Positions 12,584 to 62,148 of a stretch of 64,000 nt of DNA are shown one piece after another. Positions within the stretch are counted from its first letter, which is position 1; each line of letters starts with the position of its first letter. The notes beneath the pieces are model-generated. The model was not told the origin of the DNA. It did no database searches and was given only the letters and a program-made list of their open reading frames with translations. Made by a program: the position numbers and the translations under genes. The DNA lies in NCBI GenBank assembly GCA_949290515.1, contig CASERZ010000007.1:1-64000 (forward strand), read 5' to 3'. This stretch comes from an uncultured Christensenella sp. (GTDB taxonomy: Bacteria > Bacillota > Clostridia > Christensenellales > UBA3700).

Positions 12584-12612
12584 TTGACAGGCTATTATTA
12601 TAATATTATAAT
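12584..12612 (+). promoter_or_regulatory. SigA promoter of ftsA-ftsZ (predicted leaderless)
   Basis: TTGACA at 12584-12589, a 17-bp spacer and TATAAT at 12607-12612. The hexamer ends 6 nt before the ftsA ATG at 12619, which puts the predicted +1 on the A of the start codon. No Shine-Dalgarno is present. Confidence 0.88.
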
Positions 12613-12618
12613 AAAATT

Positions 12619-13812
12619 ATGAGAGAAGAAATTGCTGTTTTGGACATAGGCTCTGGCAAAATCGTTTTCGTTGTAGGACAAAAGTCTTCCGATGATATGT
12701 TCAACGTCAAAAATTTTGCATCGGTGCAGTATCCCGGTTATTACAAAGGCGAGTGGGTAGACAAGGATTCTCTTGCTTCCTATATTGCCGAAGCCGTAAC
12801 CAAAAGCAACTATAATCTCAAATGCAAGACCCTCTACGTGTCCGTACCTTCAGAGTTTACTCTCGTCAAGACAAACGGACTTCTTACTAATCTCAAGAAG
12901 AGAAAGACTATCGGCGAGGGTATGATAAAAGATATACACAACAAGGCAGACAGTCTAAAAGTCGCAGATTACAGCGTTTTGTGCTCGTCGGCAATCGAAT
13001 ACGTGCTTGACGGCGAAAATCATACTATATCTCCGATAGGAGAAAGTGCGGTAAGCATATACGCCAATATGTCTTATATCTTTTGCAAAAACGACTTTAT
13101 CCGTACTGTTTGCGATATAGCGGCTAGGATAGGTTTCAAGCACGTCAAGTTTATCGACGGAGTATGGGCAGAGGGTACTCAGCTCATCGAAGCGGAATCC
13201 AGAATAAACGGAGCAGTGCTTATCGACGTAGGGTATGCTTCCACAACCTTCGCTTTCGTCAAAGGCGACGGAATAAAATACAAAAACAGCGCATCATTCG
13301 GATACGGTTTTATGGTGGATGCACTGGCTAAAGCCCTCAACGTTAATTACTATGTGGCTGAAAAGATGCTCTCTCAAATCACTCTCAATATCGACAGCGA
13401 CGAGACGAGCACTTACCAGTATATGAACGGCAACGTGCAGTACGAATGCAGAGCAAGAGATATCAACAACCTTTTGCATTGCCTTATTGCCGACAACCTT
13501 GTTGACTTCGTCAATTCCAACGTCTACGCAATCAAAGAAATGGACGATTTGACGAATTCGCGTTCGGGCTATTCGGGTAATCCCGTAAGCTCCATAAACT
13601 ACCTTACTGAATTCTGTCTCACCGGCGGCGGATTGAGCGAAATCAGAGGAGCGGTAAAATATTTTGAGCGACTTTTGGCAAAAGAAGTCGTTATGCTCAA
13701 AGGCAATACGGCAGGTTGGGACAAGCCCTACTTTGCGTCGGCGTTCGCAACGCTTGAAGTCGCGGACAAACTCAATACGAAAAACAGTTTATTACAAAAA
13801 ATATTTGGTTAA
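12619..13812 (+). CDS. ftsA: Divergent FtsA-like actin-family division protein
   Basis: 397 residues. It begins with the actin-fold phosphate-1 motif AVLDIGSGKIVFVVG (6-20). A phosphate-2-like segment GAVLIDVGYASTTFAFV lies near 193-210, and a glycine-rich LTGGGLSEIRG near 334-344. It ends in a short amphipathic NSLLQKIFG, a plausible but minimal membrane-targeting helix. FtsA tethers FtsZ polymers to the membrane. Position directly before ftsZ supports the call, though it is clearly diverged from textbook FtsA. Its only plausible start codon sits 6 nt after a perfect -10 box, so the mRNA is probably leaderless. Confidence 0.82.
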   Translation: MREEIAVLDIGSGKIVFVVGQKSSDDMFNVKNFASVQYPGYYKGEWVDKDSLASYIAEAVTKSNYNLKCKTLYVSVPSEFTLVKTNGLLTNLKKRKTIGEGMIKDIHNKADSLKVADYSVLCSSAIEYVLDGENHTISPIGESAVSIYANMSYIFCKNDFIRTVCDIAARIGFKHVKFIDGVWAEGTQLIEAESRINGAVLIDVGYASTTFAFVKGDGIKYKNSASFGYGFMVDALAKALNVNYYVAEKMLSQITLNIDSDETSTYQYMNGNVQYECRARDINNLLHCLIADNLVDFVNSNVYAIKEMDDLTNSRSGYSGNPVSSINYLTEFCLTGGGLSEIRGAVKYFERLLAKEVVMLKGNTAGWDKPYFASAFATLEVADKLNTKNSLLQKIFG

Positions 13813-15142: not shown

Positions 15143-15172
15143 AATCAGATTCTTTTCTTAAAACAATAACGG

Positions 15173-15208
15173 AAAAAGTTTCAATCGACAAGATTGGAAC
15201 TTTTTTTT
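15173..15208 (+). terminator. Intrinsic terminator of ftsA-ftsZ
   Basis: AAAAAGTTTCAATC (15173-15186), loop GACAA, then GATTGGAACTTTTT (15192-15205) followed by more T. The stem has 14 pairs with one wobble. Its 3' arm overlaps the -35 region of the spoIIGA promoter. Confidence 0.92.
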
Positions 15209-15227
15209 ATTTGAATAAAATTATAAT
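15184..15227 (+). promoter_or_regulatory. spoIIGA-sigE promoter with a possible Spo0A box
   Basis: TATAAT at 15222-15227 ends 6 nt before the spoIIGA ATG, so the transcript is predicted to be leaderless. There is no -35 at 17 bp, but TTGGAA lies at 15194-15199, 22 bp upstream. That recalls the abnormally spaced, Spo0A-activated spoIIG promoter of B. subtilis. ATCGACAAG at 15184-15192 matches 7 of 9 bases of the reverse-complement Spo0A box. The same bases form the loop of the ftsZ terminator, so coincidence is possible. Confidence 0.5.
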
Positions 15228-15233
15228 ACAGCT

Positions 15234-16007
15234 ATGCAAGTGTATATCGAATACGTAGTACTTAATAATCTTGTAATCAACGCGCTGGTATTAGTGCTTG
15301 CGCTGAGATTTTGCAGATGGAAAATCGACAAGATTGCAGTGTTTTTTGCATCTGCAATAGGTACCGTATACGCAGTATTTTTACCTCTTGCGGACTATCT
15401 AGGCATATTTGCTTTCAAAATAGTATTGTCCGCCGTTATGGTTGCCATAGTTACGGGCAAATGTACTCTGAAAAAATACGCTTCCGTATATGCCGTTTTC
15501 CTTGCGCTTACTTTTGCGTTAGGCGGCATTACTACGGGAATGCAAAACGTATTCGGATTCGATACGGATACCAATGCTTCGCTAGTACCTTTTTTCGTAG
15601 GAATAGGCGGACTTGTACTTGTGTGTGCCGAAAAACTGCTTTACAAGTACATAGTACTTGCGAGAAGAAAGCACCTTTACGTTAGTGAAATAGAAATTGC
15701 CGCCAACGGCAAAACAGTAAAATGCAAAGCCTATTTTGACAGCGGAAACAAACTCTATTACCGAAACAAACCTACCGTAATAGTCGATAAAAGCGTTGCA
15801 CTGGAGTTTTACGGCAAGGACGGATACGAAAATATACAAAACGATACGTACGTGGGTACGGTAGCGGGACAAAAAAAAGTAAAAGTCTTTCCGCTCGAAT
15901 ATCTCAGCGTAGAGGGTACTCAAGACAAAATTTACGGTGTTATGGCGGCGGTATCCAACCATATAGGCGGGGAGTGTAAAGTCGTATTGCACTGTGATTT
16001 GCAGTAG
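15234..16007 (+). CDS. spoIIGA: Sigma-E processing peptidase SpoIIGA
   Basis: 257 residues. The N-terminal half has about five membrane segments (to about residue 145). The C-terminal half is the aspartic protease domain, with the catalytic motif DSGN at 169-172 inside KAYFDSGNKLYY. It cleaves the pro-sequence of sigma-E in the mother cell after a signal from the forespore. It lies directly upstream of sigE, 12 bases apart, as in other spore formers. The start has no Shine-Dalgarno. Confidence 0.93.
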   Translation: MQVYIEYVVLNNLVINALVLVLALRFCRWKIDKIAVFFASAIGTVYAVFLPLADYLGIFAFKIVLSAVMVAIVTGKCTLKKYASVYAVFLALTFALGGITTGMQNVFGFDTDTNASLVPFFVGIGGLVLVCAEKLLYKYIVLARRKHLYVSEIEIAANGKTVKCKAYFDSGNKLYYRNKPTVIVDKSVALEFYGKDGYENIQNDTYVGTVAGQKKVKVFPLEYLSVEGTQDKIYGVMAAVSNHIGGECKVVLHCDLQ

Positions 16008-20219: not shown

Positions 20220-20289
20220 GGACATATTCTATTAGGGACATATTCCGTATCGCTTTTTATGATTAAATTTTTTTATATGCGTCTATAAT
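20220..20289 (+). promoter_or_regulatory. Regulated promoter region of the glucan synthase gene (predicted leaderless)
   Basis: TATAAT at 20284-20289 ends 6 nt before the ATG at 20296. The -35 position (GATTAA, 20261-20266) is a poor match. Upstream lie two direct repeats of GGACATATTC at 20220-20229 and 20236-20245, 16 bp apart. A weak -35 with upstream direct repeats suggests an activator-dependent promoter. Confidence 0.6.
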
Positions 20290-20295
20290 CAAGAT

Positions 20296-27870: not shown

Positions 27871-27899
27871 TTGACTTATAAACGCGTGTGCGATATAAT
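27871..27899 (+). promoter_or_regulatory. SigA promoter of rarA (predicted leaderless)
   Basis: TTGACT at 27871-27876, a 17-bp spacer and TATAAT at 27894-27899. The hexamer ends 6 nt before the ATG at 27906. No Shine-Dalgarno precedes that ATG. Confidence 0.85.
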
Positions 27900-27905
27900 C
27901 GAATT

Positions 27906-29213
27906 ATGGATTTATTCGATTTGATTAACAAAGACAAAGCTCCTTTGGCACAGCGTATGCGTCCTAAAACTCTGGACGATTTTGTAGGTCAAAGTCATAT
28001 TGTCGGCAAAAACAGTCTTTTGCGAAGAGCTATCCTTACGGATACTCTGGGAAGCTGTATATTCTACGGCGCTCCCGGATGCGGAAAGACTACTTTGGCA
28101 AACATAATTGCCAATACTACGCACTCAAATTTCGTCAAGCTCAATGCTGTTTCGTCCGGCATATCCGATGCAAAGAAAGTAATCGAAGACGCCAAACTCG
28201 AAAAGGAAAGATACGGTATCAAAACGTATTTGCTTCTCGATGAATGTCACCGCTGGAATAAGGCACAGTCGGACTGTATGCTCGAAGCTATCGAAAAGGG
28301 AGATATAATATTTATCGGCTCGACTACCGAAAATCCTTTTGTTTCGATGACGAGGGCTATCGTTTCGCGTTGTAGAATTTTCGAATTCAAACCTTTGAGT
28401 GACGATGACGTAAAAAAGACTCTTATAAGAGCAATCAACGATAAAGAAAACGGACTGGGTAATTATAATCTAAAGGTCAGCGATGAAGCTCTCAACCATT
28501 TTGTATGGGCAAGCGACGGTGATTTGCGCAACGCGCTCAACGCTCTCGAACTTGCTTGTATGAGTACCGAAGCGGACAAAGACGGCGTTATCGACGTGGA
28601 CCTTACCGTGGCAGAGCAGTCGGCTCAGAAGAAGTCTATGAGCATCGACGAAAGTATGTACTACGATATGATTTCGGCATTTTGCAAATCTTTGCGTGGC
28701 AGCGACAGCGATGCGGCATTGTACTGGGCGGAAAGACTTATTCAGGCAGGTTGCGACCCTATGCTGATATTCAGAAGGCTCATAGTGCACAGCAGCGAAG
28801 ACGTAGGTATGGCTGACCCTCAGGCTCTCGTAGTAGCTACTTCTGCAATGACGGCTTTTCAGAATATAGGTTTACCCGAGGGTAAAATACCTATGTTCAA
28901 CGCTATTATTTATGTGTGTGAAGCTCCCAAGTCCAACAGCGTAGTTGAGGCGAAATACGCAGTTGAACGGATTGTTTCGGAGAAAAAGGACGACGTAGTA
29001 CCCGTTTATCTTCGCGATGCCAACTATAAAGCGGAGAAAATTCAGGGCTACAAGTATCCGCACGACTTCGGCGGGTGGGTAGAACAGCAATATTTGCCCG
29101 ATTCTCTTAAAGACGAAAGATTTTACAAGCCGTCAAACAACGGTTTTGAAAAATATCTCGTCAGAGCAAAGGATATTAAGGCGAATAAGCAGGAAAACAA
29201 AAAACGCGACTGA
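27906..29213 (+). CDS. rarA: Replication-associated recombination protein RarA (MgsA, AAA+ ATPase)
   Basis: 435 residues from the ATG at 27906. An in-frame ATG at 27888 lies upstream of the -10 box and is not used in this model. Walker A GAPGCGKTT is at 55-63 and Walker B LLLDECHRWNKAQSD near 109-123. The C-terminal half has the RarA/MgsA tetramerisation region with RRLIVHSSEDVGMADPQAL and KYPHDFGGWVEQQYLP. It acts at stalled replication forks. No terminator separates it from the glucan synthase gene, so read-through is possible. Confidence 0.93.
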   Translation: MDLFDLINKDKAPLAQRMRPKTLDDFVGQSHIVGKNSLLRRAILTDTLGSCIFYGAPGCGKTTLANIIANTTHSNFVKLNAVSSGISDAKKVIEDAKLEKERYGIKTYLLLDECHRWNKAQSDCMLEAIEKGDIIFIGSTTENPFVSMTRAIVSRCRIFEFKPLSDDDVKKTLIRAINDKENGLGNYNLKVSDEALNHFVWASDGDLRNALNALELACMSTEADKDGVIDVDLTVAEQSAQKKSMSIDESMYYDMISAFCKSLRGSDSDAALYWAERLIQAGCDPMLIFRRLIVHSSEDVGMADPQALVVATSAMTAFQNIGLPEGKIPMFNAIIYVCEAPKSNSVVEAKYAVERIVSEKKDDVVPVYLRDANYKAEKIQGYKYPHDFGGWVEQQYLPDSLKDERFYKPSNNGFEKYLVRAKDIKANKQENKKRD

Positions 29214-31988: not shown

Positions 31989-32017
31989 TTGACAAAAGCG
32001 CAATGATTTAGGATAAT
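31989..32017 (+). promoter_or_regulatory. SigA promoter of ruvX (predicted leaderless)
   Basis: TTGACA at 31989-31994, a 17-bp spacer and GATAAT at 32012-32017. The hexamer ends 6 nt before the ATG at 32024. The nearby AGGA overlaps the -10 box and would not be in the transcript. Confidence 0.82.
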
Positions 32018-32023
32018 TTAGAT

Positions 32024-32428
32024 ATGAAGTATTTAGCAATAGATTTAGGCGACAGCCGCACGGGAATTGCCATAAGCGAAAGCGGTATAATCGCAAGCGG
32101 TTACGAGACATACAAAAGAGTCGATATGCAAAAGGACCTTGAGCATATAGCCGAGCTTGTCAAGCAATTCAAAATCGACGTAGTCGTATTCGGACTTCCT
32201 CTCAATATGGACGGTACGAAGGGTGACAGAGTGCAGAAAACTTACGATTTTGCCGAGGCTCTCAAACCCCTTATAGACGCTAAGATTGACTATGAGGACG
32301 AAAGACTTACTACGGTGGTCGCGGAAGAAATGCTTATCGACAGCGGTATGAGGAGAGATAAACGCAAAAAGGTTATCGACAAAATTGCCGCAACCATTAT
32401 ACTGCAGGCATATCTTGACAGACAATAA
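32024..32428 (+). CDS. ruvX: Putative pre-16S rRNA nuclease RuvX (YqgF)
   Basis: 134 residues, normal length. It has the RNase H-like fold start YLAIDLGDSRTGIAIS (3-18), the motif VVFGLPLNMDGTKGDR near 54-69 and YEDERLTT near 91-98, carrying the conserved acidic residues. YqgF family members are linked to maturation of the 16S rRNA 5' end and resemble Holliday-junction resolvases. It has its own promoter and no Shine-Dalgarno, and is followed by a terminator. Confidence 0.93.
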   Translation: MKYLAIDLGDSRTGIAISESGIIASGYETYKRVDMQKDLEHIAELVKQFKIDVVVFGLPLNMDGTKGDRVQKTYDFAEALKPLIDAKIDYEDERLTTVVAEEMLIDSGMRRDKRKKVIDKIAATIILQAYLDRQ

Positions 32429-61078: not shown

Positions 61079-61107
61079 TTTACATATACTTAAAATTATG
61101 GTAGAAT
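61079..61107 (+). promoter_or_regulatory. SigA promoter of pepP (predicted leaderless)
   Basis: TTTACA at 61079-61084, a 17-bp spacer and TAGAAT at 61102-61107. The hexamer ends 6 nt before the ATG at 61114. No Shine-Dalgarno precedes the gene. Confidence 0.78.
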
Positions 61108-61113
61108 AACACT

Positions 61114-62148
61114 ATGGATATATGCAGAAAACTGTACGACTTGTGCAAAACGGACACAGTTATAGTGCTTTTGCCTTCGGACACCTTGTATTTATCGGGA
61201 TATTCTTCGACTAACTGTCAGATTATCCTCACAAAGTCAAAATCGTATTTTCTGACCGATATGAGATACTATCTCGAGGCAAAAGCTTCAATCGGAGACA
61301 GATTTGAAGTTATCTCGGGCTCATTAGAAGACAATAAGGACCTGATAGAAGGCTCATATATCGGTTTTGAAAAGGGAATAAGTTATACCGAATATCTGTA
61401 TCTTAAACAAATCTGCGATGAAAAACATTTGACGGACATCAGTGAGCAGATTAGCGAGTTGAGAGATATCAAATCGCAAGACGAGATAGACAAAATAATT
61501 TGCGCTCAAAAAGTTACGGAACTTGCTTTCAACGAGGCTTTATACTTCGTCAAAGAAGGAATAAGCGAATACGAACTTGCCGCATATATCGAATACGTTA
61601 TGCTTAAAAACGGTTGCGCGCTAGCATTCGACAGCATAGTGGCTTTCGGAGAGCATACCGCCAGCCCTCACGCACACAGAAGTGATAAAAAATTGGCTGC
61701 GGGCGACTTCATAACAATGGATATAGGCGCAAAGTATTGCGGATATTGCTCGGATATGACGCGTACGGTTTGCTTCGGCAATCCTTCGTCGGAGCAGACA
61801 GAGATATATCAGGCAGTCCTCAACGCTCAACTGAAGGCGCTCGACAACATAAAAGCGGGTATGACGGGAAGAGAGGGGGACGCGATTGCCAGAGATTACT
61901 TTGCGTCACTCAAACTCGACAAATACTTTACACATTCTTTGGGGCACGGGATTGGAATTGATATTCACGAGGGTACCGGAATGACCCCCAGAGAAAACAG
62001 AGTTTTGAAAAAGGGTATGGTCGTAAGCGTTGAACCGGGATTGTATCTGGATTCAAAGTTCGGCGTGCGTATCGAGGATATGGCACTAATTGAGGAGAAT
62101 TCAGTCAAATCATTGACTAATGCTAATAAACAACTAATTATTCTTTAA
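61114..62148 (+). CDS. pepP: Xaa-Pro aminopeptidase (M24 family, YqhT-like)
   Basis: 344 residues. An N-terminal creatinase-like domain (to about 120), then the pita-bread metalloprotease domain with the five metal ligands in [43 protein letters not shown] and [12 protein letters not shown]. It removes N-terminal residues before proline. The order pepP-efp-spoIIIAA mirrors yqhT-efp-yqhV-spoIIIA of B. subtilis. Predicted leaderless. Confidence 0.93.

Follow-up and report, generated by a model that had tools for sequence, protein, structure and literature searches.

In streptococci, leaderless transcripts account for 8-9% of mRNAs and are mixed with genes led by a Shine-Dalgarno (SD) sequence, 81% of the S. 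pyogenes cases are common to S. agalactiae, and one leaderless mRNA has been found to be translated efficiently in S. pneumoniae (PMC4448216, PMC6431027, PMC6212727). In S. agalactiae, for example, ~8% of mRNAs are leaderless, all of these use AUG, and 90% start on A (PMC4448216). Zheng et al. (2011) detected a leaderless signal in 56 of 209 Firmicutes genomes, with the genes concerned mainly in Lactobacillales and Mycoplasma; Clostridia are unmentioned in the text of that study (PMC3160421). Mapped leaderless genes number 15 in Clostridioides difficile (PMC7438776) and 11 in Acetobacterium bakii (PMC6239172). The first-pass annotation of the DNA studied here had taken leaderless mRNAs to be minor in Firmicutes, a view that does not hold for the streptococci and does hold for the mapped Clostridia, where very few are known. 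Our literature search found no paper linking leaderless mRNAs with Christensenellaceae.

A useful point of comparison is the class of TA-led genes of Zheng et al. (2011; PMC3160421), in which a TANNNT core beginning ~12 bp before the start is read as the -10 box of a leaderless gene. The same signal is present in this genome, with a -10 box ~12-7 bp before the start at a fixed distance, no SD sequence, an AUG start, and a -35 box at canonical spacing. In the window, by which we mean the whole 64,000-nucleotide stretch of DNA analysed, six genes had been proposed to share an invariant -10-to-ATG distance:

12584..12618, forward strand: predicted leaderless promoter of ftsA, with -35 TTGACA (12584-12589), a 17-bp spacer and -10 TATAAT (12607-12612)
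12613-12618, forward strand: ftsA gap AAAATT, followed by the ATG at 12619
12619..13812, forward strand: ftsA coding sequence, predicted leaderless (Pfam PF14450 FtsA)
15170..15212, forward strand: terminator-like strong hairpin and then a U run, between ftsZ and the spoIIGA -10 box (-16.6 kcal/mol, z -7.3)
15222..15233, forward strand: spoIIGA -10 TATAAT (15222-15227) and gap ACAGCT (15228-15233), no consensus -35
15234..16007, forward strand: spoIIGA coding sequence, predicted leaderless (Pfam PF03419)
20284-20289 and 20290-20295, forward strand: -10 TATAAT and gap CAAGAT of a glucan-synthase-like gene of 2522 aa
20296..27864, forward strand: the 2522-aa coding sequence, predicted leaderless ("glucan synthase" is the name given in the first-pass annotation)
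27871..27905, forward strand: predicted leaderless promoter of rarA, with -35 TTGACT, a 17-bp spacer, -10 TATAAT (27894-27899) and gap CGAATT
27906..29213, forward strand: rarA (mgsA) coding sequence, predicted leaderless (Pfam PF12002, PF16193)
31989..32023, forward strand: predicted leaderless promoter of ruvX, with -35 TTGACA, a 17-bp spacer, -10 GATAAT (32012-32017) and gap TTAGAT
32024..32428, forward strand: ruvX (yqgF) coding sequence, predicted leaderless (Pfam PF03652, match from residue 1)
61079..61113, forward strand: predicted leaderless promoter of pepP, with -35 TTTACA, a 17-bp spacer, -10 TAGAAT (61102-61107) and gap AACACT
61114..62148, forward strand: pepP-like M24 aminopeptidase gene, predicted leaderless (Pfam PF00557, PF01321)

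On re-reading the sequence, the six -10 hexamers (four TATAAT, one GATAAT and one TAGAAT) and their 6-nt gaps matched the proposal exactly, and so did the -35 boxes of ftsA, rarA, ruvX, and pepP, each with its 17-bp spacer; spoIIGA and the glucan-synthase gene have no recognisable consensus -35. A gene caller blind to promoters picked all six ATGs as starts, and start codons are backed by N-terminal family matches (Pfam) and conserved N-termini. The proposed absence of an SD sequence held for the set and needed qualification for ruvX, which has an AGGA 10 nt upstream. Because this AGGA overlaps the -10 box, it would not be transcribed, and most leaderless ruvX orthologues are without it.

The genome comprises 1.72 Mb in 19 contigs, with the window on contig C7, and spacing was assessed on 824 kb of it (48%, window included), from which 685 genes were called and 662 were usable. 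The caller used coding potential, start-codon type, and SD strength, promoter signal being excluded to avoid circularity. Over all called starts, TATAAT occurred at gaps of 0 to 12 nt in 2, 0, 0, 0, 0, 1, 13, 1, 1, 0, 0, 0, and 0 cases, respectively. All 13 gap-6 genes start with ATG and fall among the 115 non-SD genes, in which neighbouring spacings have counts of 0-1. None of the 415 strong-SD genes has TATAAT at gap 6, and in SD-led genes the hexamer is more distant, most often ~30 nt before the start. The expectation that the spacing would recur across the genome, and above shuffled upstream regions, was borne out: outside the window, 9 exact TATAAT hexamers lie at gap 6 in 100 non-SD genes, against a background mean of 0.14 at gaps 10-59 (Poisson P = 5e-14) and a mean of 0.21 (maximum 2) in 300 dinucleotide shuffles. 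The spacing is, then, a real observation well above chance. Allowing one mismatch gave 24 candidates at gap 6 (3.6% of genes), at least one of which, an in-operon gene with a weak SD (L023), is probably there by chance. Simple scaling extrapolates to about 50 leaderless genes per 1.7-Mb genome, and the layout is found in about 3-4% of all genes and about 6% of those whose upstream space is 40 nt or more.

Two further features accompany the spacing. The 24 candidates were selected without any -35 requirement, and TTG lies at exactly 17 bp from the -10 box in 16 of them and at spacers of 11-16 or 18-21 bp in none; in two other families of the order, the 17-bp counts are 9/13 and 11/12. In addition, the gaps had been said all to end in T. 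An enrichment is indeed present (23/24 candidates versus 53/82 other non-SD genes, P = 0.002), although it is partly trivial, since T already occupies position -1 in 66% of SD genes, and since this genome has very little CATG (observed/expected 0.07), an avoidance that removes C from the base before ATG and makes the 23/24 weak by itself. The more telling comparison comes from genomes G146 and G167, in which CATG is not among the avoided words: a pyrimidine precedes the ATG in 25/25 leaderless starts compared with 335/550 other starts (P = 7e-6), as transcription starting on the A of the ATG predicts.

The 824-kb sample as a whole strongly avoids GATC (observed/expected 0.03), CATG (0.07), and GGCC (0.12), a pattern that suggests restriction-modification pressure. 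A D12-type (Dam-like) methyltransferase was not found in the genome.

We consider it very likely that sigma-A promoters begin these mRNAs on the A of the ATG and so yield leaderless transcripts, as the first-pass annotation had proposed. This is a prediction, and it is by far the best reading of the single spacing, the 17-bp -35, the -1 pyrimidine, the missing SD, and the conservation described below. With a sigma-A-type -10 box ending 6 nt before the ATG, RNA polymerase would start on the A; the resulting mRNA would have no 5' untranslated region; and its 5'-terminal AUG would initiate translation through 70S ribosomes, free of SD pairing, by analogy with other bacteria. The promoter geometry, SD absence, initiator base, and clade conservation were obtained directly from sequence, whereas the positions of the 5' ends and initiation by 70S ribosomes are inferences.

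Gene-level histograms show the same gap-6 peak in G146 (59% GC) and G167 (57% GC), which represent two other families of the order, and the gap-6 start is ATG in 13/14 and 12/13 cases in these relatives. The peak is absent from G200 and G191, a small outgroup sample of two genomes from other orders of the class. In 15 of 20 stretches from relatives, an ATG placed 6 nt after TTGAC-N18-TATAAT begins an ORF of 100 codons or more. The layout has the look of an old trait of this Clostridia order, maintained by selection.

Two other signals in the relatives were set aside. A possible second class with TATAAT 4 nt before ATG was rejected, as TTG and GTG are about as common as ATG at that position, only 3/20 of the ATGs open a long ORF, and most have an SD-led gene just downstream; the signal comes from the preference that ordinary promoters have for starting at T(-1)G(+1). 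Whole-genome counts of TTGAC-N18-TATAAT-N6-ATG (mean 2.5 per genome in the order and 1.64 in other orders) were likewise rejected as a measure of leaderless genes outside the order, where the same preference makes them misleading: G191 has 9 hits and no gene-level peak.

Comparison of orthologues across the clade, which the first-pass annotation had called for, showed that rarA, ftsA, pepP, and spoIIGA keep the placement of their promoters while the flanking sequence diverges. Of the 76 orthologous rarA loci, 65 have a -35/-10 pair that ends 6-10 nt from the start (6 nt in 42, 7 nt in 10, 8 nt in 8, 9 nt in 4, and 10 nt in 1), and none has one at 3-5 nt; among the remaining loci are clear cases led by an SD, whose promoter lies at a greater distance. 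A longer GTG-initiated rarA ORF at 27888 was rejected as the start, since aligned starts show that the ATG fits the conserved N-terminus M-D-L-F-D. The RarA protein is 100% identical to that of an uncultured Christensenellaceae MAG, and the nearest relatives are uncultured Clostridia and Christensenella-like MAGs. At four rarA loci (L098, L102, L104, and L105), TATAAT is followed ~7 nt later by an additional in-frame ATG upstream, which adds a few residues to RarA (ATGGAACAG...), as if the start codon had tracked the promoter.

Almost all members of the genus, and most of the family, have the 6-nt distance at ftsA; SD-led orthologues occur in four cases in other families and in one within the same family. 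At 12597-12612 the ftsA promoter also contains a palindromic tandem repeat, ATTATAAT-ATTATAAT, which takes in the -10 box and is conserved in nearly all of the genus; it could serve as an operator or as duplicated -10 boxes. For spoIIGA, gap 6 is kept in 11/11 orthologues recovered. The hairpin at 15170-15212 immediately precedes the spoIIGA -10 box, and no consensus -35 is seen there; by analogy with Bacillus, the first candidate for this promoter would be a Spo0A-type activator. Genus members have a -10-like box (TAGAAT, TAAAAT, or TAAACT) at gap 6 before pepP, and several family members have it at gap 7-8. Gap 6 is present upstream of ruvX in 14/16 genus members and absent from the other two and from 14/14 loci outside the genus, which mostly have an SD; ruvX thus appears, from these upstream sequences, to be leaderless only inside the genus, with SD-led copies in relatives.

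The orthologues bear on the rival explanation that survives best, in which the promoters are real and the principal mRNA carries a 1-4 nt leader, or most of the translated mRNA comes from an extra upstream promoter. The rarA loci with gaps of 7-10 nt (23 of the 65) and the pepP loci at 7-8 nt fit such a short leader, and for orthologues with these gaps it is possible; an individual gene may also have a second promoter further upstream that makes a longer mRNA. In this genome, however, the peak lies at 6 nt precisely and the A follows a pyrimidine, and a longer mRNA would have no SD to use. As a general account, we regard this explanation as improbable. Less likely still, and by some way, is that the A/T-rich box is no -10 box but a translational enhancer (an S1-type or A/U-rich leader element): in other phyla, A/U-rich biases ahead of non-SD starts may be S1 sites (PMC5397173), but an enhancer needs neither TATAAT at one spacing nor TTG at exactly 17 bp. 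Chance matches combined with wrongly called starts can be given almost no credence, for although the genome is AT-rich, TATAAT is common in it, and raw TATAAT-N6-ATG over all DNA is only mildly raised, the peak survives shuffling and exclusion of the window, is present at 57-59% GC, and comes with a fixed -35 and orthologue conservation that already contradict this account.

The genes that use the layout are less clearly a class. The first-pass annotation had suggested two initiation modes split by gene class, and in partial agreement 10/21 leaderless genes versus 0/30 SD-led controls (random genes with their own upstream space, from one genome) fall in DNA-maintenance or RNA-modification families (P = 3e-5, for a category defined after the list was seen); ftsA, spoIIGA, and pepP lie outside that category. 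The genes in question encode RarA, RuvX, UvrC, a DinB-type polymerase, a XerS-like recombinase, a dGTPase, TilS, TrmN6-like and RlmB-like methyltransferases, and a U32 tRNA-hydroxylase-like protein. In G146 and G167 the leaderless set includes PolA (twice), KsgA, a TtcA-like protein, a Xer-like recombinase, an RlmI-like protein, and a Ham1 protein. We treat this bias as a tentative lead and not as a result. It is tempting to speculate that in this order leaderless initiation forms a conserved class linked to function, and places low-level genes of DNA maintenance and RNA modification (rarA, uvrC, dinB, polA, a Xer-type recombinase, dGTPase, tilS, trmN6, and ksgA) under separate translational control, but we think it rather doubtful. 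If true, translation of these genes could be controlled apart from that of SD-led genes, for instance under stress or at altered IF3/70S levels.

Leaderless genes themselves are a known kind; what is new here is the clade, in which they had not been anticipated, the conservation, and, tentatively, the functional bias. The prediction extends leaderless initiation to an order of Clostridia that is large and mostly uncultured, and in which the mode appears to be old and to have been retained by selection at certain genes. For ~50 genes per genome the layout also predicts exactly where the start codon and the promoter lie; annotation software that looks for an SD may put these in the wrong place. 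Moreover, ruvX, rarA, ftsA, and pepP offer natural switches from leaderless to SD-led between close relatives, and with them a testbed for the effects of the leaderless state.

Compared with known systems, C. difficile and A. bakii, from the same broad group, have 15 and 11 leaderless genes against the ~50 extrapolated here. The streptococcal leaderless mRNAs belong to a different Firmicutes class and have been mapped experimentally, whereas those described here are predicted from sequence. The features found in this genome match those of the leaderless mRNAs of S. agalactiae, with AUG as the only start codon and a predicted transcript start on A (PMC4448216).
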